This document shows, in pieces, positions 44,741 through 54,418 of a stretch of DNA of 58,860 nt. The stretch is taken from assembly GCA_025455865.1 (NCBI GenBank), contig JALOLS010000029.1, forward strand, positions 1 through 58,860. Direction: 5' to 3'. The translations under genes and the position numbers were made by a program. Every line of letters begins with the position of its first letter. The first letter of the stretch is position 1. This DNA is from Thermoleophilia bacterium (GTDB lineage: Bacteria > Actinomycetota > Thermoleophilia > Miltoncostaeales > Miltoncostaeaceae). Under the pieces are notes generated by a model, which made no database searches, had not been told where the DNA came from, and was given only the letters and a program-made list of their open reading frames with translations.

Positions 44741-46219
44741 CTACCGGGCGGCCTCGGCCGCCCCGGCCGGCCCCGGCGCCCAGAGCAGGCCGCTGACCTC
44801 GCCGAGGGGGTCCAGGATGTGCATCCCGTCGCCGGTGATGACGAACTCACGGATGGAGGTGTCGTGGCGCGAGCCGCGCATCTTGAGCACGGTGAGCGCC
44901 CGGCGCACCGCGCCCGGGGTCTCCACGTAGCGCAGCAGCACGACGCAGTCGCTGATCGCCGGGACCTGGCCCTCGGCGGCCGGCCCGGCACCGGCGAGCG
45001 GCGAGGTGGTGGTGAGCACCGCGGGCACGCCGCGGTCCTTGAGCGTGGCCGCCAGGCCGGCGACGAACTCGCGCAGGGGCCGGGGGGCCTGGGTGCGCTC
45101 GAGCACGCCGAGGCCGTCCACCGCCACCCGCCGGGGCCCCAGGTCGTCGACCTCGCCCCGCACCTGCACGAGCAGGTCCTCGAGGCTCATCCGGTCCGGG
45201 TCCCGGGCGAGGATCCGCAGGCGGCCCGCGTCCTCGGCGGCCCCCAGGTCGATGCCCCAGCTCAGGGCGTTGCGCACGAGCTGCTCGCGGCCCTCCTCCA
45301 GCGAGAGCAGCAGGCCCGGCTCGCCGCGGGCGATCCCGGCCCGCATGAACTCGGTGACCACCAGGGTCTTGCCGCTGCCGGTGGGCCCGCTCACCAGCAC
45401 CATCGAGTCGCTGAACAGGCCGCCCCCGCACATGCGGTCGAGGTCGGCGATCCCCGACGAGATCCGCTCCCCCCCGGGGGTGCGGCCGAGCTCGATGGCC
45501 GAGTCGGGGATGACCGACAGCCCCCGGCGGGCGTCGATGGCGAACGGGTACTCGCCCCGGCGGTGCGACGCGCCGCGGAGCTTCAGGATCTCCACGGTGC
45601 GCCGGCGCTTCTCCTGCTCGAGCGGGTTGCGCAGGACGACCACGCCGTCGACCACGAACTCCTCGATCCCGTGCCGGGCGACCGACCCGTACTCGTCGAC
45701 GCGCTCGGCGGTGATGAGGGTGGTCACCCCCATCCCGTGCAGCGCGCGCACCATCCGCCGCAGCTCCCGCCGCACCGCGCCCGCGTCGGCGAACACCGCG
45801 AACAGGGAGCCGACCGAGTCCAGCACCACCCGGGTGGCCCCGATGCCGCGGACCGCCTCCCCCACCCGCAGCAGGAGCCCCCCGAGGTCGAAGGGGCCGA
45901 GCTCCGCGTGGTCCTCCTCGTCGGTGGCGGTCGCGTCCACGATCACGACCCGCCCCTGCCCCACCGCGCCGGCGAGGTCCCAGGGGGGCGCATCGAAGTG
46001 GGTGAGCAGGTCGCCCGGGGGCTCCTCGAAGGTGACCAGCACGCCCCGCTCGCCCGCCTGGGCGCCGGCCACCAGGTACTGCACGGCGAACACCGTCTTG
46101 CCCGCACCCGAGGTCCCGACCACCAGCGTCGCGCGCCCGCGCGGCAGCCCCCCGTCGGCGATCTCGTCGAAGCCCGGGACGCCCACCGCCAGGCGCCGGC
46201 CGTCCGGCGGCGGGCTCAC
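44741..46219 (-). CDS. kaiC: KaiC-family double-domain ATPase
   Basis: A 492-residue KaiC homologue with two RecA-like domains. Walker A motifs are GTSGAGKT (35-42) and GPTGSGKT (278-285); the catalytic Glu pairs follow in TFEEPP (65-66) and SLEEGR (308-309). The CII C-terminal part aligns as ISDCVVLLRYVE...KMRGSRHDTSIREF, and the positions of cyanobacterial Ser431/Thr432 read Pro420/Ala421, so the classic autophosphorylation cycle is not expected. It lacks the long A-loop tail that binds KaiA. GTG start overlaps the kaiB stop. Probably a stress or timing-related KaiC variant. Confidence 0.92.
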   Translation of the reverse strand: MSPPPDGRRLAVGVPGFDEIADGGLPRGRATLVVGTSGAGKTVFAVQYLVAGAQAGERGVLVTFEEPPGDLLTHFDAPPWDLAGAVGQGRVVIVDATATDEEDHAELGPFDLGGLLLRVGEAVRGIGATRVVLDSVGSLFAVFADAGAVRRELRRMVRALHGMGVTTLITAERVDEYGSVARHGIEEFVVDGVVVLRNPLEQEKRRRTVEILKLRGASHRRGEYPFAIDARRGLSVIPDSAIELGRTPGGERISSGIADLDRMCGGGLFSDSMVLVSGPTGSGKTLVVTEFMRAGIARGEPGLLLSLEEGREQLVRNALSWGIDLGAAEDAGRLRILARDPDRMSLEDLLVQVRGEVDDLGPRRVAVDGLGVLERTQAPRPLREFVAGLAATLKDRGVPAVLTTTSPLAGAGPAAEGQVPAISDCVVLLRYVETPGAVRRALTVLKMRGSRHDTSIREFVITGDGMHILDPLGEVSGLLWAPGPAGAAEAAR

Positions 46220-46572
46220 GCCACCGCCCCCCCGCCCGCCGCCCGCTCGCGCAGGAGCAGGTCGAGCTCGAGCACGACCATCAGGGAGTCGGCGTCGCGC
46301 AGGTCGCCGACGATCCGCCGGGTGGGCCCGGGCTCCAGCCGGATGAGGGTCGGCGTGGCCATGATCCGCTCGGCCCCGGCGCGGTCGGGGTGCTCGAGCA
46401 GGTCGACCACCTCGACCTCGCAGCGCAGGCCCGGCAGCCGGTCCCGCAGGTCGGCCACCGTCGCGAGCGCCCGGCGGGAGTACAGGCTCCCCCCGGTCAC
46501 GAAGAGCCGCAGGCGGCACCCTGGGACGTCGCCGCCCCCATCCCGAGCCTCCGCGTCACCGGTCATCGTCAC
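46216..46572 (-). CDS. kaiB: KaiB-family protein
   Basis: A 118-residue KaiB: LRLFVTGGSLYSRRALATVADLRDRL, EVVDLLEHPDRAGAERIMATPTLIRL and IVGDLRDADSLM match the fold-switching thioredoxin-like family. The GTG start at 46572 lies nine bases after TAGCAT (leaderless); an ATG at 46566 is an alternative. The stop overlaps kaiC (GTGA), consistent with complex formation. KaiA is absent, as is usual outside cyanobacteria. Confidence 0.93.
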   Translation of the reverse strand: MTMTGDAEARDGGGDVPGCRLRLFVTGGSLYSRRALATVADLRDRLPGLRCEVEVVDLLEHPDRAGAERIMATPTLIRLEPGPTRRIVGDLRDADSLMVVLELDLLLRERAAGGGAVA

Positions 46573-46648: not shown

Positions 46649-47473
46649 TCAGGCGCCGACCGCGCGGACGTCGACCAGCTTGACCTTGTAGCTCTGCCGC
46701 GCCGTCTGGTTGTAGAGGGTGATCGACTCGCCCTCCTCGAGGGTCACCGTGTCGGTGCCGTCCGGCAGGAGCCCGGCCGCGAGCTGGAGCACGACCGACT
46801 TCGCCCCGATCGTCTTCACGGTGAACTGCTGGGTGTCCGGCGGGATGGCGTCGCCCTCGCGGGCGACCACCGGCTCCCCGGAGATGTCGAAGTCGGCCTC
46901 GAGCGCGTTCGGCGTGGTGACCGGCGTCGACGGGGCCGGCGAGGTGGTCGGGTCGGCCGGCGCCGAGGGGGTGCCCGGGGCCGCCGGGGTGCCCGGCGTC
47001 GCGGCCGGCGTGACCGCGGTCGCGGGGGTGCCCGGCACCGCGACCACCGGGGCCGCGTCGATCGGGGTGCCGCCCGGCGGAGGCGCGGCGGTCCCGCCCC
47101 CGGCGGTGGCCGGCGTGCCGGTCGAGCCCTCGCTCGCCGAGGCCGCCGCGCCCCCGTCCTCGGCCTCGCGCACCTGCTGGTGGAAGACGTCCTTGGGGGT
47201 GCCGAACCGGTCGAGCCCGGTGAGGGCCGCCGACTGGCTGCGGTCGCTCACCTCCTGCGGCGCGCCCAGGGCCACCACGGCCTGGCCCAGCGCGGCCCCT
47301 GCGGGCGCCCCGGGCGCCGCACCGGGCGCGCCGGCGACCACCGGCTGGCCGGCGGTGGTGTCGGCGGCCGTGGACTCCCCGCCGCCTCCGCCGCCGCAGC
47401 CGCCGACCAGCCCCACGCCCCCGAGCAGGAGCGCCGCGGCCGCGGCCGCCAGGCGGTTGGACCGGGGGATCAT
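46649..47473 (-). CDS. Lipoprotein in PilP position of pilus operon
   Basis: A 274-residue exported protein. The N-terminus has a lipobox-like GLVGGC (Cys26), then a Gly stretch, a long low-complexity Ala/Pro/Thr region (about 30-190) and a C-terminal compact beta domain (FTVKTIGAKSVVLQLAAG...TVTLEEGESITLYNQTARQSYKVKLVDV). Position after pilO matches pilP, a lipoprotein with a small beta domain in Gram-negatives, but sequence similarity to PilP is not evident. ATG overlaps the pilO stop. It could link the inner pilus complex to cell wall. Confidence 0.7.
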   Translation of the reverse strand: MIPRSNRLAAAAAALLLGGVGLVGGCGGGGGGESTAADTTAGQPVVAGAPGAAPGAPAGAALGQAVVALGAPQEVSDRSQSAALTGLDRFGTPKDVFHQQVREAEDGGAAASASEGSTGTPATAGGGTAAPPPGGTPIDAAPVVAVPGTPATAVTPAATPGTPAAPGTPSAPADPTTSPAPSTPVTTPNALEADFDISGEPVVAREGDAIPPDTQQFTVKTIGAKSVVLQLAAGLLPDGTDTVTLEEGESITLYNQTARQSYKVKLVDVRAVGA

Positions 47474-48189
47474 TGGGTCGCACCTCCGCTCGGGGCCGGC
47501 GCGGCCGGAGCCGTGCCGACGTTCGGGTTCACCATGCCGGGCGCCGTCGCGCCCGCCGCGCCGCCGGCCGCCGGGTCGGTCCGCGAGAAGGCGACGATGT
47601 CGAGGGTCGCCTGCACGCGGTCCTCCGACGCCCGCCGGGCCGCCCCGGACGCCGCCCCGGCCTGGGCCTCGTCCTCCGGGGCCAGGCCGAGCTCGAAGCC
47701 GGTGAGCGCGAGCAGCCGGCCCCCGACCTGCGGCCGGACCCGCTCATCCAGGCCCACCAGGTCGTGCATGCGGTAGAGGAAGTCGTCGACGTCGAAGAAG
47801 TCGCCGCTCACCCGGACCTGGAACTGCGTGCCGGTGACCTCGCCGTAGGGCGTGGTCTTGCTGGTGGAGACCTCCTCCAGCCGCACGTCGGAGCGCGCCG
47901 CCAGCCGCTCGAGCTGCACCAGCGCACCCGGCACCTGGGGCGAGTCGGGCACGGCCTTGGCCATGCGCAGCGACTCGGCCGCGCGCGCGGCCAGGGCGCC
48001 CTTCTCGCCCTGCATCCGGGTGAGGGTGTCCGTGAGCTCGGCCACCCGCTGCCCGGTCGTGGCGATCTCGTCGCGGCGCTGGGCGATCTCCGCCCCCGCG
48101 GGCCGGATGGAGAAGTACCAGACGCCGCCCAGCAGGACCGCGAGGAGCAGGCCCGCCAGGATCAGCTTGTCGCGCTTGGAGATCTTCAT
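47470..48189 (-). CDS. pilO: Type IV pilus assembly protein PilO-like
   Basis: A 239-residue bitopic membrane protein: short cytosolic N-terminus, one helix (LILAGLLLAVLLGGVWYF, about 9-26), coiled coil (IAQRRDEIATTGQRVAELTDTL) and a ferredoxin-like domain (TGTQFQVRVSGDFFDVDDFLYRMHDLV), the classic PilO layout, with an added Ala/Pro-rich C-terminal tail. It would pair with PilN in the inner-membrane alignment complex. Stops and starts overlap on both sides. Confidence 0.88.
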   Translation of the reverse strand: MKISKRDKLILAGLLLAVLLGGVWYFSIRPAGAEIAQRRDEIATTGQRVAELTDTLTRMQGEKGALAARAAESLRMAKAVPDSPQVPGALVQLERLAARSDVRLEEVSTSKTTPYGEVTGTQFQVRVSGDFFDVDDFLYRMHDLVGLDERVRPQVGGRLLALTGFELGLAPEDEAQAGAASGAARRASEDRVQATLDIVAFSRTDPAAGGAAGATAPGMVNPNVGTAPAAPAPSGGATQ

Positions 48190-48851
48190 GGCGTGACCCC
48201 GGTGGGGATGGAGGCGGAGGCCCCGTCGGCCGCGACCACCGACTGGCGGTCACGCCCGCGGGCGTCGAGCGCGGCGTCGATCTCGAACCGCACCACCGTG
48301 CGGCCGTCGATCGTCTGCCGCTGGGCCCGCGCGAGCCGGGGCTCGCCCAGGCCGGGCACCGAGGCCACCCGCACCATGGCGAGGGCGACCTGGCGATGGG
48401 TGTAGGCGAAGCCCTCCACGTGCAGGCCGACCGGGACCTCGGTCGGGGCCTGGCCCGGCGTGGCGGCGGTCACCCCGAGGTTCGGGGTCGCACCCTTGAG
48501 CTTGGTCAGCCAGACCTGCCGGGGCATGACCGTGGCCACGTTGCGCACCACCCGCTCCCAGTTGACCCGCGCGAGCGTGAGCCCGACCACCAGCTGCCGC
48601 TCGGCGGCGGCGCGCTCGGCCTGGGCCTGCACGTCGGCGAAGGCGCCCAGGCGCGTGGTCAGGTCGGCCTCCTGGGCCTGGAGCGCCGTGAGCTGCTCGC
48701 CCAGGTCGGCCTTCTCGGCGCGGAGCGACCAGCCCCACCACCCCATCGCGCCGACCGCCGCGACGGCGACGAGGCCGGCGGCCGCGCCCTTGGCCGAGCC
48801 GAAGCCGCGGGGGCCGCGGCGGCCGGCGGGCAGGAGGTTGACGGCGTTCAC
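48186..48851 (-). CDS. pilN: Type IV pilus assembly protein PilN-like
   Basis: A 221-residue PilN. The N-terminal VNAVNLLPAGRR motif (INLLP type) docks into PilM; one helix follows (AAAGLVAVAAVGAMGWWGW, about 23-41), then coiled coil and a ferredoxin-like domain (VNWERVVRNVATVMPRQVWLTKLKG). The GTG start overlaps the pilM stop (GTGA). Confidence 0.9.
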   Translation of the reverse strand: MNAVNLLPAGRRGPRGFGSAKGAAAGLVAVAAVGAMGWWGWSLRAEKADLGEQLTALQAQEADLTTRLGAFADVQAQAERAAAERQLVVGLTLARVNWERVVRNVATVMPRQVWLTKLKGATPNLGVTAATPGQAPTEVPVGLHVEGFAYTHRQVALAMVRVASVPGLGEPRLARAQRQTIDGRTVVRFEIDAALDARGRDRQSVVAADGASASIPTGVTP

Positions 48852-49921
48852 GACCCCTCCGTCCCGTCCAGGGCGAGCCCGACGGCGACCGCGGCGCGAG
48901 CCGGCACCTCCGGGGCGACCTCGCCCACGGGGTCGAGGTGCAGGAGGGCGTCGCCGCGGTCCACCGGGATGCCGAGGGACTGCTGCAGGTAGCGGTCCAG
49001 TCCGCCGCACAGGGCCGTGCCGCCCGAGAGCACCAGGCGGTCGATGGGCCGTGCGAAGCCCTGGGAGCCGTAGTAGTCGAGCGACCGGCGGACCTCCTGC
49101 ACCAGCGGCCGGGCCCCCAGGGCCAGGGCGTGGCGCACCTCGGTCACCGTGTCGGCGTCCCAGCCCTCGGGCACCTCGCCGAGCAGGCCGCACGCGTTCT
49201 TGAGGGCCTCGGCCTCGGCCGGCGGGAGCCCGGTGCGATCGGCCACCGCCCGGGTGAGCTGGGCGCCCCCGAACGGCACCAGCCGGGTGAACTGGCAGCG
49301 CCGGTCGAGGGCCACGATCACGTTGGTCATCGACGCCCCCACGTGGCAGACCACCTGCGCGGGAGCGCCGGCGGCGCCCTCGTCCAGGAGCCCGGGCGGC
49401 GGGAGCAGCGCCCGCAGGAGCGCGAACGCCTCGAGGTCGATCCCGACCGGCTGGAGCCCGGCCTTGCGGACCCCGCTGACCAGCGCCTCGATCATGTCGC
49501 GGTGGGCGGCCACCAGCATGATCCGCTCGCGCGGCCCCGACTCGCTCTCGTAGCGCAGGATGGGCTGGAAGTCGACGAGGGCCTGGTCGGGCGGGATCGG
49601 GATGTGCTCGGCGGCCTCGAACTCGACCGCCGCCCGCCGCTCGCCCGGATCGTCGATGGCCGGCATCTCGATGGCCCGCACCAGCACCCGCTGGTTGGCC
49701 ACCCCGAGCCGCACCCGGCGCCCGGAGAGCTTGGACGCGCGCCACATGCGCTTGAGCGCCTGGCCGAGGGCGTCCGGCTGCTCCACCTCGCCGTCGACCA
49801 CCAGGCCGTCGGGGAGGGGCTCGACCACCGCCTTGCTGAGGGAGAGCCGGTCGCGGCTCGCGCGGAGCTCGACGGCGGCGACCGAGCTCGATCCGATGTC
49901 CAGTGCGACGACGGTGCTCAC
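48848..49921 (-). CDS. pilM: Type IV pilus assembly protein PilM
   Basis: A 357-residue actin-like (FtsA/PilM) cytosolic ATPase. STVVALDIGSSSVAAVEL is the phosphate-1 motif, VVCHVGASMTNVIV the phosphate-2 motif, and LVLSGGTALCGGLDRYL the adenosine motif. It recruits PilN to the pilus base. The GTG at 49921 is chosen because GAGGAG lies about 9 bases upstream and the fold begins there; the frame is open further upstream into pilD. Confidence 0.93.
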   Translation of the reverse strand: MSTVVALDIGSSSVAAVELRASRDRLSLSKAVVEPLPDGLVVDGEVEQPDALGQALKRMWRASKLSGRRVRLGVANQRVLVRAIEMPAIDDPGERRAAVEFEAAEHIPIPPDQALVDFQPILRYESESGPRERIMLVAAHRDMIEALVSGVRKAGLQPVGIDLEAFALLRALLPPPGLLDEGAAGAPAQVVCHVGASMTNVIVALDRRCQFTRLVPFGGAQLTRAVADRTGLPPAEAEALKNACGLLGEVPEGWDADTVTEVRHALALGARPLVQEVRRSLDYYGSQGFARPIDRLVLSGGTALCGGLDRYLQQSLGIPVDRGDALLHLDPVGEVAPEVPARAAVAVGLALDGTEGS

Positions 49922-49958: not shown

Positions 49959-50729
49959 TCATCCGAGGCGGTCGGCGTACCAGCCGAGCATCGACGGCCC
50001 CCACCAGAGCGCCACCAGGGCACCGGCGGCCAGGAAGGGTCCGAAGGGAAGGGCCATCTTCCGCGCCCCCCGCCCGAACCGGGCGAGCAGGACGACGCCG
50101 AGGGCGGCGCCCGCGGCGAAGGCGACGGCCATGGCCGGGATGACCGAGCTGCCCAGCACGGCGCCGAGCAGCAGGGCGAGCTTCACGTCGCCCATCCCCA
50201 TGCCGGCCGGGTAGGCCAGGGCGAGGATGAGCAGGAACGCCGCGGCCCCCGCCGCGGCGGTGACCGGGACCCACCAGCGCGCCGGGTCGGCGGCCACCGC
50301 GAAGGCGAGGCCGGCCGCGGCGGCGGGCAGGACGATGACGTCGGGGATGAGCTTGTGCTCGAGGTCGATGACGACCACCGGCACCAGCGTGAGGGCGAGC
50401 ACCGCCGCGGCGAGGCCGCGCCAGGTCGCCCCGAAGGTGACGATGGCCAGGGCCGCGAGCCCGCCGCTCACCAGCTCGAGGGCGGGGTAGCGCCAGGGGA
50501 CGCGCGCGCCGCAGCCGCGGCAGCGCCCGCCCTGGATCACCCAGGAGACGACCGGCACCAGCTCGTACCAGGAGAGCGTGCGGTCGCACGCGGTGCAGTG
50601 CGAGCGCGGGTGCGAGAGGCTCTCGCCCCGCGGCCAGCGCCAGCAGGCCACCGAGAAGAACGAGCCGGCCGCCAGGCCGACCAGGCCGGCCACCACCGCC
50701 CAGAACCAGGTGGGGGCGCCCAGGGTCAC
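49959..50729 (-). CDS. pilD: Prepilin peptidase
   Basis: A 256-residue polytopic aspartic protease of family A24 that cleaves and N-methylates prepilins. The N-terminal loop has two CxxC pairs (CTAC, CRGC), a zinc-binding feature of bifunctional PilD. Catalytic Asp residues are in VVIDLEHKLIPD and GMGMGDVK. About eight helices. GTG start overlaps the FN3-like protein stop. Its substrate is likely the pilin encoded just upstream. Confidence 0.94.
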   Translation of the reverse strand: MTLGAPTWFWAVVAGLVGLAAGSFFSVACWRWPRGESLSHPRSHCTACDRTLSWYELVPVVSWVIQGGRCRGCGARVPWRYPALELVSGGLAALAIVTFGATWRGLAAAVLALTLVPVVVIDLEHKLIPDVIVLPAAAAGLAFAVAADPARWWVPVTAAAGAAAFLLILALAYPAGMGMGDVKLALLLGAVLGSSVIPAMAVAFAAGAALGVVLLARFGRGARKMALPFGPFLAAGALVALWWGPSMLGWYADRLG

Positions 50730-53365
50730 CGGCGACCCCGGAGCACGAAGCGGTCGTAGACGAAGAGCTTGCGCTGCCGGCTCTTGCCGGCGGCCAGCCG
50801 CCGGTCGCCGGGCACCAGCAGCCGCAGGCGGTAGCGGCCGGGGTCCATCGTCGCCCGCATGCTCACCCGGAACCGGGGGCGCGCGGGGGTGATGGTGCGG
50901 ATGGTCTCCCAGCCCGAGGCGCCCAGGGCCTGCAGGCGCACCAGCCGGCGGGGGTAGACCGACCCGCTGACCCGCAGGCGGCCCTTGCGGGCGACCTTGC
51001 CGGAGGCGAGCACCAGGGTCACCCGCGGCCCGACCTCGACGCCGAACGGCGCGATGCCCTCCGGGTGCGCCTCGGTGGCCGCCCAGCGCAGGCGGTAGTC
51101 GGCCGAGCGCTTGGGCCGGATGCGGAAGGCGTAGCGCCCGCGGGCGTCGCCCTTCACGGTCCCGAAGAACCGGTAGTCGCGGTCCGGGAACGCCCGGCGC
51201 TCCAGGACCAGCACCGGCTTCTTGATGCGGCCGCCGCCGAAGGCGAGCGCGCCGACCACGGTCACGGTGTCGCCGTAGCCGACCCGCGTCGGGATCTGGT
51301 TCAGGCCGAAGTCCGGGGGCAGCATGCTGCGGAACGATCGGGCCGGGCTCCAGGGCCCCAGCGACTCATCGCAGTAGTCGGCCCGCACCCGCCAGAACCA
51401 CCGCCCCGGGCCGGTGACCTCCTTGGCCGTGGGCACCATCGCGGTCTGGTAGGTCGAGAGCGCGCCCTCCGCGTCGTCCTGCGGGAAGTCCGGCCCCTTG
51501 TTGATCTGCACCCGGTAGGAGCATGCGTGGGGGACGGGCTTCCAGCGCATGAGCGGCGAGCCGACCACCACCGCGCCGTCCTCGGGCTCGAGCGCCAGGG
51601 GGCGCGGCGAGGTGAGGGTGAACGTGCCGACCGGGCTCCAGGTCTGGCCGTTGCCGACCCCGTCGATGGGCCGCACGTGCCAGTACCAGGTGCCGTCCTT
51701 GAGGCGCTTGGCGTTGGAGAACGAGCCGGGCGCCATCCCGGTGCCCCACACCACCGCCTTGACGCCCTCCGAGCCGGACTCACCGCCGCCGGCGTTGCCC
51801 TTGGCGTCGCCCAGCGACGCCGAGAACTGCCGGTCCTGGCTGAGCTGGACCTCGAAGCGGGCCGCGCCGGGGACCTGCGACCAGGACAGCACCGGCGGCT
51901 CGCTCACCGTGGTGCCGTCGGCCAGGCCGAGCACCACGCGGGTCTGCTTGCGGAACTGCGACCGCGGGGCGAGCGCCTCGTCGATCATCCAGCGCGGGTC
52001 GGCGTTGTCCATGTTCGCGCCCCAGACCACCCGCCACCAGTAGCCGGTGCCGACCTGGTTGTCGGCCAGGGGCACCCGCGGCACCCAGTCGGTCGAGGGC
52101 GTCGTGTCGGACGCGATCACGTTGTTGAACTGCGGGTCGGTGGCCACGTCGACGCGGTAGATCTTCGCGCCGCTCGCCGGCGACCAGTGCAGGTGGGGCA
52201 TGAGCGCGCTGTCGGAGTCGCCCGCCTGCTGCAGCACCGGCTCGGGCGCCGAGGGGGGCTGGTCGACGTAGGAGATCCGCCGCACCGGCGCCCAGGTGCC
52301 GTACACGCCGTTGACCATCGGGCGCACGCGCCACCAGTAGTCCTGCCCGCGGAACAGGCCCTTGGCCTTGTGCTCGAGCACGTCGGGGGCGAAGCCGGTG
52401 TTGGCGGTCTCGCCGTTCACCTTGAGGTCCTCGCCCACCCAGGTGTGCTGGCGGGCGGTGATCTGGACCTGGTACTTCTCGGCGCCGGGCACCGGGTTCC
52501 AGCGCAGGGAGATGCTGTGCACCGCCTCGCCGTCGGCCGGCCCGAGCACCTCGGGGGCCACCCAGGCCTTGGTGAACTGCGCCCCGGCGACCCACGGCCC
52601 CGGGTTGTCCTTGGGGTCGCGGGCGCGGACCCGCCAGCCGTAGGAGTCGTCGGGCAGCACGCCGGCCGTGCCCGGCGTGAAGAACGCCGAGTGGAAGTGC
52701 AGGCCCATGTAGGTGGGGGTGGCGAACTGGTCGCCCGCGGCCACCTCGACCTCGTACTCCTTGGCCCCGGCGAGCGGCTCCCAGGCGAAGTACGGGTTGA
52801 GCAGGAACTGGGTCTGCGCGGGGCCGCCCGGGACCGCCGACTGGCGCAGGCCGCCGACCGCGGCGGGCCACCGCTTGGTGAACCGGGCCGGGTCGCTCGG
52901 CATGCCGACCACCCCGGCCACGTCGGTCGCGGTCACGCGCCAGTGGTAGGCGCCGTCCGGCAGGAGCACGTCGGGCGCGACGGCCGGCTGGTCGGTCACC
53001 TTGGACCACACCACCCCGGTGAAGGCGGCGTTGCCGGAGATCTCGACCTTGTACTCCTTGGCCCCCTGGACCGGGGTCCAGGAGAGCACCACCGGCTCCT
53101 CGGGGTAGTCGTGCGGGTCGGTGGTGCCGTCGGGCGTGAGCCCCGTCGGCCGGCTGGCCGCCCGGTCCGCCTTGAAGGGCGAGCGGACCGCCGGCGCCGT
53201 GGCGGCGTCCGGGGCGGCCGGGGCGGGCGTCGCGCCCGTCGGCGCCGGGGTGGCCGGCGTCGTCTGGGTGGGCGAGGCCGGCGTGACGGGCTCGCCGGCC
53301 GCCACGGCGGCGGCGGGGAGACCGAGCAGGGCGAGGGCCAGGGCGAGTCCGAGGGGGCGCCACAT
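50726..53365 (-). CDS. Giant secreted FN3-like repeat protein heading the pilus operon
   Basis: An 879-residue exported protein. The signal peptide (about 1-23) is followed by an Ala/Pro/Thr-rich linker and about six FN3-like modules, each ending with an aromatic W-R/H-V strand (YHWRVTATD, YGWRVRARD, YWWRVRPM, YWWRVVWG, WYWHVRPID, WFWRVRADY) and starting with an LSW/LRWNPV.GA..Y.V strand. The C-terminal 150 residues are different beta domains (ARGRYAFRIRPKRSADYRLRW, then GKVARKGRLRVSGSVYPRR). No membrane anchor is seen. It precedes pilD with a GTGA overlap, so it is made with the pilus machinery. A pilus-associated adhesin or wall-spanning channel component is a reasonable guess. Confidence 0.8.
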   Translation of the reverse strand: MWRPLGLALALALLGLPAAAVAAGEPVTPASPTQTTPATPAPTGATPAPAAPDAATAPAVRSPFKADRAASRPTGLTPDGTTDPHDYPEEPVVLSWTPVQGAKEYKVEISGNAAFTGVVWSKVTDQPAVAPDVLLPDGAYHWRVTATDVAGVVGMPSDPARFTKRWPAAVGGLRQSAVPGGPAQTQFLLNPYFAWEPLAGAKEYEVEVAAGDQFATPTYMGLHFHSAFFTPGTAGVLPDDSYGWRVRARDPKDNPGPWVAGAQFTKAWVAPEVLGPADGEAVHSISLRWNPVPGAEKYQVQITARQHTWVGEDLKVNGETANTGFAPDVLEHKAKGLFRGQDYWWRVRPMVNGVYGTWAPVRRISYVDQPPSAPEPVLQQAGDSDSALMPHLHWSPASGAKIYRVDVATDPQFNNVIASDTTPSTDWVPRVPLADNQVGTGYWWRVVWGANMDNADPRWMIDEALAPRSQFRKQTRVVLGLADGTTVSEPPVLSWSQVPGAARFEVQLSQDRQFSASLGDAKGNAGGGESGSEGVKAVVWGTGMAPGSFSNAKRLKDGTWYWHVRPIDGVGNGQTWSPVGTFTLTSPRPLALEPEDGAVVVGSPLMRWKPVPHACSYRVQINKGPDFPQDDAEGALSTYQTAMVPTAKEVTGPGRWFWRVRADYCDESLGPWSPARSFRSMLPPDFGLNQIPTRVGYGDTVTVVGALAFGGGRIKKPVLVLERRAFPDRDYRFFGTVKGDARGRYAFRIRPKRSADYRLRWAATEAHPEGIAPFGVEVGPRVTLVLASGKVARKGRLRVSGSVYPRRLVRLQALGASGWETIRTITPARPRFRVSMRATMDPGRYRLRLLVPGDRRLAAGKSRQRKLFVYDRFVLRGRR

Positions 53366-53382: not shown

Positions 53383-53914
53383 GGCCTGGCCGGCGCGCGG
53401 GATGCGCGCGCTTCGTGCCAGCCTCGTCACGAGAGCGCGCCGTCGTGGCGCGCGCGGGATGCGTGGGCACGTCCGCTTCCTTGCGTCGGGCGACTTCCGG
53501 GCAGATCCGACCGCCGTGGGCCTGGCGGTCTGCACACCGAATCGGCCCGCCCGTGCCCGCCCTTGAGGCGTGCCGGCCGGCGGCGGCCCGGGCGGCGGGC
53601 ACCGATCCTCCCTGGGGTTGTCCTTCGCGCTCCCCCGCCGAGCCCGGGAGCGCCGCGCCGGGGCGCCATGCGCCCGGCGAGACGGCCGAGGTGCCCGCCC
53701 GCGCGCACGACGACCACCAGGCGCCGGATGCCCGTCGCGCCACGCCCCGACCACCGCGCTCGCGCCCGGTCGTCGGCGGGAGCCATCACGTCGGCGCCCC
53801 GCTCACCGCCACCTCCGCGCCCCCCGGGGCGCCGCCGGATGCGGGGCGGGCCCGTTCGCGCCGGGCCGCGGCCGGGCCGCCGGGCGCCCGGTCGCCGACC
53901 TGGGCGCCGGGCAG
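53383..53914. other. About 530-bp gene-free spacer between pilin and pilus operon
   Basis: The open frames here are low-complexity Arg/Pro/Ala shadows without start signals. I see short inverted repeats (for example around 53580-53600) but no recognisable riboswitch, RNA gene or protein. It may hold upstream control elements for the pilus operon. Confidence 0.4.
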
Positions 53915-53953
53915 TCGCCGCAAACGGCGACGGGCCCGCCGAAGCGGGCCCGT
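53915..53953 (-). terminator. Tandem terminator hairpins after pilin gene
   Basis: ACGGGCCCGC (53930-53939) pairs with GCGGGCCCGT (53944-53953) around a CGAA tetraloop, and TCGCCG (53915-53920) pairs with CGGCGA (53925-53930) around CAAA. Read on the minus strand they follow the pilin stop by 27 bases and end in a short TTT run. A very strong candidate intrinsic terminator for a highly expressed gene. Confidence 0.75.
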
Positions 53954-53980
53954 CGGGTCATGCGTGACTCGGGGTGCGGC

Positions 53981-54418
53981 CTACCAGGTGGCGGCGCAGC
54001 TCGAGTTGGCGGCCGCCGCACACGTGCGGGTGACCACGTTGTTGGCCTTGTCCAGGGTGTAGACGTTGCCGGAGTTGCTCTTGGAGGTGATCGTGTACCC
54101 GCCGGCCTTGGCGGTGAAGGTCACCTCGTTGCTCTTGGCCAGGCCCTGCGCGGTGATCTTGATGTTCGGCTCGATCTTGCCGAGCATGGCGGCGTCGATG
54201 GTGTTGTAGTCCTGCGTGTCGGCGTAGGCGGCCTCGACGGCGGTCTGCTCGTTGCGCACGAGCGACTTCGCAGCGGCGTCGTTGGCCTTGTCGCGCTGGC
54301 CGAGGAACGCCGGGATGGCGATGGCGGCCAGCAGGCCGATGATGATGACCACGACCAGGAGCTCGATGAGCGTGAAGCCCTTCTGCTCCCGGGCACGGCG
54401 GCGGAGCCGAGCGAGCAT
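53981..54418 (-). CDS. pilA: Type IV major pilin (PilA-like)
   Basis: A 145-residue prepilin. The short basic leader ends EQKG, with cleavage predicted before Phe15 of FTLIELLVVVIIIGLLAAIAIPAF, including Glu at mature position 5. The mature domain has a conserved YNTIDAAML region, a beta sheet and a C-terminal Cys pair (RTC...SSC, Cys133 and Cys141) like the disulfide loop of type IVa pilins. A GGAGGAG Shine-Dalgarno sits about 8 bases before the ATG at 54418. It has its own tandem terminator, so it is transcribed separately from the assembly operon. Confidence 0.93.
   Translation of the reverse strand: MLARLRRRAREQKGFTLIELLVVVIIIGLLAAIAIPAFLGQRDKANDAAAKSLVRNEQTAVEAAYADTQDYNTIDAAMLGKIEPNIKITAQGLAKSNEVTFTAKAGGYTITSKSNSGNVYTLDKANNVVTRTCAAAANSSCAATW

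Follow-up and report, generated by a model that had tools for sequence, protein, structure and literature searches.

A putative pilus-coupled recognition rod built of FN3-like modules in Miltoncostaeaceae

Type IV pilus assembly has been reviewed (PMC10191384). Monoderm bacteria lack a secretin, and Streptococcus sanguinis also lacks PilP (PMC6916266). Both pilins and the pilus protein PilY1 occur in modular forms (PMC8179133). By 2019, every actinobacterial pilus that had been studied belonged to the Tad (Tfpc) type (PMC6916266), and the type IV pili of Rubrobacter are under c-di-GMP-linked control (PMC8325347). Here we analyse a 58,860-nucleotide stretch of DNA from a Thermoleophilia bacterium of the family Miltoncostaeaceae (assembly GCA_025455865.1, contig JALOLS010000029.1; hereafter the window), whose minus strand encodes, directly ahead of the prepilin peptidase gene pilD, a protein of tandem FN3-like modules that we call the FN3-array protein. 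A preliminary description of the window had seen in it the giant first product of a pilus assembly operon, which might serve either as a guide for the pilus through the thick envelope or as a tip adhesin. The overall observation is confirmed. Tentatively, we interpret the protein as an accessory rod, coupled to the pilus and putatively exposed at the surface, that would serve recognition or adhesion; its role would be PilY1-like, though it is not itself a PilY1.

The FN3-array gene (50726..53365, minus strand) runs from an ATG at 53365 to a stop codon at 50726-50728, exactly as first mapped, and encodes 879 aa, a length for which the word giant is generous. In the product, a signal peptide and a Pro/Ala/Thr linker precede six FN3-like modules, which are followed by two C-terminal beta-sandwich domains of basic character. 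A longer open reading frame of 1005 aa from a GTG at 53743 is disfavoured because a signal-peptide-like stretch follows the ATG at 53365 and because, by eye, no common sequence links the in-frame extensions that precede the genes of relatives. A type I signal peptide is predicted from hydropathy at residues 1-23 (53297..53365, minus strand), with the cleavage site AVAA/GEP read by eye. Kyte-Doolittle windows of 19 residues reach 2.25 at the hydrophobic N-terminus, and beyond residue 30 none exceeds 1.24, leaving no later hydrophobic segment. Simple patterns and hydropathy detected no LPxTG-like motif, lipobox or transmembrane anchor, so that the earlier prediction of an exported protein lacking an anchor stands.

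Each of the six modules closes with a W-R-V-type strand, as had been noticed (WRV in five, WHV in module 5). The W[RH]V motif was counted six times, compared to a mean of 0.28 and a maximum of 5 in 5000 shuffles, and all 15 module-to-module comparisons scored above shuffles (z 4.0 to 15.7). All six motifs are present in each of the 13 full-length copies compared, a set that leaves out a contig-cut copy in genome G127 and a short form in genome G113. The window's modules scored on average 224-314 against their positional counterparts vs 53-106 against other modules. Module 6 (residues 586-683; 51317..51610, minus strand) carries a Cys615-Cys665 pair in 12 of these 13 copies. Two features had been overlooked: a largely conserved N-terminal motif, SPFKADR, and the two C-terminal beta-sandwich domains at residues 684-879. 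A Pfam scan returned Ig_Rha78A_N at 37.6 bits (cut-off 27.4) and three weaker matches, and Ig_Rha78A_N was matched by all eight members of our alignment A1 (E up to 0.1).

Structure prediction agreed with the proposed FN3-like fold. An AlphaFold2 model built on 10 aligned sequences had a mean pLDDT of 74.9 and a pTM of 0.62 and was almost wholly beta, with low confidence at residues 1-60, 520-531 and 852-879; single-sequence prediction was unusable (pLDDT 31.3). The top Foldseek matches of the model were mostly long FN3/Ig arrays. VIA-align matched it to a fibronectin chain (8peq_B, Z 12.4, rmsd 9.5 over 259 residues) and, as a single domain, matched model residues 165-268 to 7ceg_A (Z 10.4, rmsd 2.3 over 91 residues). 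As modelled, the protein is an FN3-like beta-sandwich array with tandem modules of ~100 residues. Such a common fold by itself indicates no function.

The link to the pilus begins with gene order. The minus strand reads pilin, FN3-array protein, pilD, pilM, pilN, a pilO-like gene, a lipoprotein-like gene, kaiB and kaiC. The stop codon of the FN3-array gene overlaps the start of pilD (49959..50729, minus strand; Pfam cut-off reached) in the sequence GTGA, and in all 13 relatives whose contig carries both genes (counting G113 with its short form) the two lie -4 to +6 bp apart (genes and starts in relatives were called by a purpose-written codon-bias script). The coupling to pilD seen in the window is therefore general among these relatives. 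Its position as first gene of the operon is plausible: the window's pilin gene lies 615 bp upstream, behind a hairpin without a clear T tract, vs 138 to 368 bp for the nearest pilin in the 12 relatives where one was seen.

Based on its distribution, the FN3-array protein looks like an accessory and not a general part of the Thermoleophilia pilus. In a class sample of 119 genomes taken from a larger group, 87 had a PilM_2 match and nine the FN3-array protein, all nine from the window's family (f1), near full length in eight and as the short form in one; weaker partial matches came from 14 other genomes. No near-full-length match was found in 78 of the 87 PilM-bearing genomes, contrary to what would be expected of a general pilus component. 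Thirty mapped pil loci of other families contained no gene best-matching the protein (phmmer, E up to 1e-3; several contigs end early), and among 296 genomes sampled from the phylum, where up to three candidates per genome were scored, the full-length matches listed came only from G000, G007, G031 and G043, all f1. Among 42 genomes of the family, PilM was present in 20, and the FN3-array protein in 15 of these and in none of the other 22 (Fisher test by genome, p 1.6e-7; a weak match elsewhere in G123 was left out). The absence from most relatives with the pilus operon that the preliminary description had named as refuting is thus seen across the class (9 vs 87 PilM genomes) and in part within the family, where co-occurrence holds by genome. 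The five PilM-bearing family genomes without the protein are G078 and G121 of genus g8, which keep pilins, pilD, pilM and pilN in loci that go from the pilins straight into pilD, and G122, G123 and G125, which have a more divergent PilM (E 1e-27 to 3e-31).

These absences weaken the earlier idea of a guide, in which a wall-embedded rod or collar would line or brace the pilus path through thick peptidoglycan and replace the missing secretin. With a similar wall assumed, a required guide is hard to reconcile with its absence from 5 of 20 family genomes, including genus g8 with its like operon, and with the 78 class genomes lacking a near-full-length match; the hypervariability of module 3 described below would also be left without a reason. 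Because it is mostly missing at class level and partly missing in the family, the protein is better seen as accessory. What speaks for a guide is that the profile search for secretin (PF00263) found none in the FN3-array protein and 0 candidates in the whole genome at E up to 1, as had been proposed, together with the tight pilD coupling, the six modules in 13 of 13 copies, a basic tandem related to domains of peptidoglycan enzymes and the retention of this tandem by the shortened G113 form. The passage of type IV pili across peptidoglycan is also listed as open in the literature (PMC6916266). On balance we consider a guide unlikely.

The same distribution bears on a second alternative, a cell-surface adhesin or wall protein merely co-expressed with the pilus and never in contact with it. 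The by-genome co-occurrence with PilM and the pilD coupling in every measurable genome argue against it, as does G001, which lacks both PilM and the FN3-array protein while three genomes of the same genus (G113, G119 and G120) retain both. It would fit the C-terminal tandem, which is common to varied secreted proteins, the similar FN3-rich proteins of other families, which had no pil gene in the stretches checked (8 loci), and the PilM association by genus, which is not significant. We regard simple co-expression as rather unlikely.

A new element of this analysis is the hypervariability of module 3 (residues 269-368; 52262..52561, minus strand) between some close relatives. The FN3-array protein overall does not evolve faster than its operon, since its median identity to the window (50.5%; 12-16 loci a gene) falls within the range of PilN and PilO (both 42%), PilM (66%) and PilD (69%). 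Module 3 had the lowest mean identity of the modules (0.45, vs 0.48-0.61 for the others). Five genome pairs were compared, with amino-acid differences of 0.10 (G067/G105), 0.23 (G109/G124), 0.25 (G119/G120), 0.40 (G031/G043) and 0.37 (G007/G128). The most variable 100-codon window was 275-376 in G067/G105 (block-permutation p 0.003) and 275-375 in G109/G124 (p 0.0002), and four of the five top windows start within 8 residues of one another (275-283), a coincidence with a chance near 2e-5 under uniform, independent starts. Within G109/G124, identity was 51% in module 3, 94% in module 1 and 88% in module 5. This pair differed at 85 nonsynonymous and 33 synonymous codons in modules 3 and 4, vs 107 and 153 elsewhere, and its module 3 dS of 0.60 lies inside the range of the other modules (0.41-0.70). 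The nonsynonymous-to-synonymous odds ratio of modules 3 and 4 against the rest was 3.7 in G109/G124 (p 2e-8), 2.4 in G067/G105 (p 0.005) and 2.0 in G007/G128 (p 0.005); modules 3 and 4 were picked for these Fisher tests after the per-module table had been seen, making the maximal-window permutation the fairer test. The simplest reading would be local relaxed or diversifying selection on module 3, as for an exposed recognition surface.

The C-terminal basic tandem C1-C2 (residues 684-879; 50729..51316, minus strand) may point to the wall. These last 196 residues have a net charge of +13 to +50 in all 13 copies, vs -15 to +1 for the remainder. Tandems homologous to C1-C2 occur in secreted proteins that include L,D-transpeptidases: C1-C2 aligned with the stalk that the YkuD L,D-transpeptidases from family f2 carry, at 29% identity over 185 columns (E 5e-9), and profile matches likewise connect it with peptidoglycan enzymes, namely YkuD and lytic transglycosylase proteins. 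By Pfam, the 19 distinct other tandem carriers scanned comprise 5 YkuD, 2 DPBB lytic transglycosylase, 4 subtilase and 8 other proteins (multicopper oxidase, CWB2 repeats with cytochromes, Ig-type domains, further domains or no match); they were chosen from hit lists, not exhaustively, and the counts carry no background rate. Only the first tandem domain was matched in two of them, L158 (subtilase) and L207 (CWB2), and the 19 leave out a duplicate in L021 (the same gene as in L115) and a carrier's neighbour at L112 9285-12110. The loci in which L,D-transpeptidases or lytic transglycosylase-like proteins from other Actinomycetota bear this same double beta-sandwich tandem include L021, L022, L024, L114, L115, L198 and L199. 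From these relationships we infer that C1-C2 may be a wall-affinity carrier. The short form in G113 (297 aa, encoded between pilin and pilD) opens with a signal-like stretch, followed by the end of module 6 and the tandem. Identity of this tandem to those of G119 and G120 is 58-65%, and dN/dS values of 0.23-0.45 indicate that it still looks constrained (pairwise NG86 estimates, rough on such GC-rich sequence).

Taken together, these data can be joined into a putative mechanism. The FN3-array protein would be an accessory of a type IVa-like pilus system in Miltoncostaeaceae, exported by Sec as its predicted signal peptide suggests. Its string of eight beta-sandwich domains would measure roughly 30 nm if extended. 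The basic C-terminal tandem may hold the rod to the wall or the pilus base, and the six-module rod would offer an outward-facing recognition surface. Module 3, with variability observed in some pairs, would be where the rod diversifies and encounters ligands, rival cells or phages. Recognition would thus be added to the filament, as by PilY1 or a modular pilin, by a member of neither family. Of the two earlier proposals, the adhesin fits better than the guide, given that the operon can do without the gene and that some close pairs show hypervariability in module 3. The preliminary interpretation is upheld in its FN3-like fold, signal peptide, absence of a detected anchor, pilD coupling and absence of a secretin match, and weakened in its envelope guide. 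A fuller version, in which a Sec-exported FN3 rod on a wall-affine C-terminal carrier uses one diversifying module, module 3, to set pilus ligands or usable phages as the monoderm-specific counterpart to PilY1 in Miltoncostaeaceae, is rather unlikely in its entirety.

Several findings weigh against a recognition rod. First, the hypervariability of module 3 is not general, being significant in two of five pairs: the top window of G119/G120 (283-383) had a block-permutation p of 0.77, this pair being almost as close as G109/G124, and those of G031/G043 (772-872) and G007/G128 (280-380) had p of 0.21 and 0.28. Second, dS in G067/G105 is highest in modules 3 and 4 (0.34 and 0.43, vs 0.18-0.28 elsewhere), so import from another lineage is possible in that pair. 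Third, the linkage to PilM is not significant by genus (7/10 vs 0/2, p 0.15), and kinship therefore carries much of the by-genome association. The raised dS, the close pair without excess and the genus-level result together weaken our interpretation. Fourth, the fixed order of six modules and a median identity above that of PilN and PilO differ from what is seen in adhesins whose repeats come and go. Fifth, G113 has lost modules 1-5 and kept the tandem, showing that the carrier can outlast the modules, and this cuts against a purely module-based role. Lastly, most genomes are metagenome assemblies, and G109 has two contigs carrying the 3' part of the gene.

The remaining pilus genes bear on a further alternative, that the protein is cargo, with the pilus machine working much like a secretion system to release it as an exoprotein. 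The neighbouring pilin (53981..54418, minus strand; 145 aa, N_methyl) has GspG as its top NCBIfam match, below that model's cut-off, and the pilO-like gene (47470..48189, minus strand) matches T2SSM/GspM above its cut-off and PilO just below; both would suit secretion, as would the lack of a detected anchor. Set against this are the absence of a secretin match, the absence of any catalytic domain found in the protein and the ATPases: PilB (assigned by Pfam, with MshEN), a second T2SSE-type ATPase that is PilT-like by size and place, as in pili, and a PilC-like protein named from gene order and the look of its sequence lie together on another contig. We consider cargo very unlikely. Two N_methyl proteins in the window's genome exceed the cut-off, and 2-4 were found in each of the 8 tabulated genomes with the full-length FN3-array protein. 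Median counts in PilM-bearing genomes of other families were 2.5 (f5, n=4; f9, n=2), 4 (f3, n=14; f7, n=10), 5 (f6, n=16) and 7 (f2, n=11; f4, n=16); adding the zero-match genomes G064 (f4) and G088, G104 and G112 (f6) brings the f6 median to 4 and leaves f4 at 7. Since these counts overlap, a replacement of minor pilins by the FN3-array protein is rejected as a strong claim.

Elsewhere in the operon, pilM (48848..49921) and pilN (48186..48851), both on the minus strand, reached their Pfam cut-offs. The hairpin 3' of the pilin gene (53929..53954, minus strand; 26 nt, 11-bp stem, TTCG loop) was absent from the terminator-scan output. A lipoprotein-like gene conserved in the family occupies the usual pilP place (46649..47473, minus strand); PilP was not detected in it (E up to 10), its identification as PilP is rejected, and its C-terminal domain is strongly conserved (GEPVVAREGDAIPPDTQQF). 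The kaiB-kaiC pair (44741-46500, minus strand) follows pilMNO and this gene, and the other mapped family loci that reach its position have different genes there, often aroC. G128 has a second pair of pilM-like and pilO-like genes (L190:8351-10353, on an 815-kb contig) apart from its main operon, and G121 has five pilin genes in an array before pilD (L179:3109-7923). In family f4, large genes upstream of pilD (1025 aa; L081, L082) were rejected as counterparts of the FN3-array gene, their products being presumably oxidoreductase-like by sequence; genes of 291-301 aa found there are presumably dihydrodipicolinate synthase-like.

In Actinomycetota, type IVa pili have received little attention. 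No paper describing the FN3-array protein was found by title or start of abstract, in a search with subscription papers mostly outside its scope. If our interpretation is true, a pilus-coupled non-pilin rod with one hypervariable module would be a concrete candidate for how a monoderm pilus gains specificity, and the natural contrasts of genus g8 without the protein and G113 with a shortened form make the idea of a recognition rod testable. The case also counsels caution, as a large protein in a monoderm pil operon is not automatically a wall guide.

Compared with known systems, the FN3-array protein resembles PilC/PilY1 (PF05567), the non-pilin tip protein of type IVa pili, in being a large modular non-pilin tied to pilus genes. 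PilY1 too combines differing N-terminal modules with a constant C-terminal domain (PMC8179133). Unlike it, the FN3-array protein has no PF05567 match (E up to 1), and its model is all beta-sandwich with no propeller. The PF05567 search over the class genomes gave no match and control genomes were silent too, so that absence elsewhere is not implied. With the modular minor pilins PilB and PilC of S. sanguinis it would share adhesion-type modules presented by a monoderm pilus; unlike them, it has no N_methyl match, and its modules belong to a protein of their own whose signal is type I-like. The domain entry IPR003961 stands for FN3. It is among the frequent grafts on modular pilins (PMC8179133). 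Other Thermoleophilia and Actinomycetota also have FN3-rich proteins that form FN3-like arrays (e.g. L107, L108 and L210-L212; about 970-1500 aa), and all four scanned (L107, L108, L210 and L211) match Ig_Rha78A_N; they differ in having no pil gene in the stretches checked and are ~24-33% similar over parts. Such proteins of family f3 include L107, L109 and L117, and the neighbours of L107 and L117 are heme-biosynthesis-like by the look of their sequence. Finally, the f2 YkuD L,D-transpeptidases with a two-domain stalk have the C1-C2 tandem in common with the FN3-array protein, which differs from them as a pilus-linked protein without a catalytic domain.

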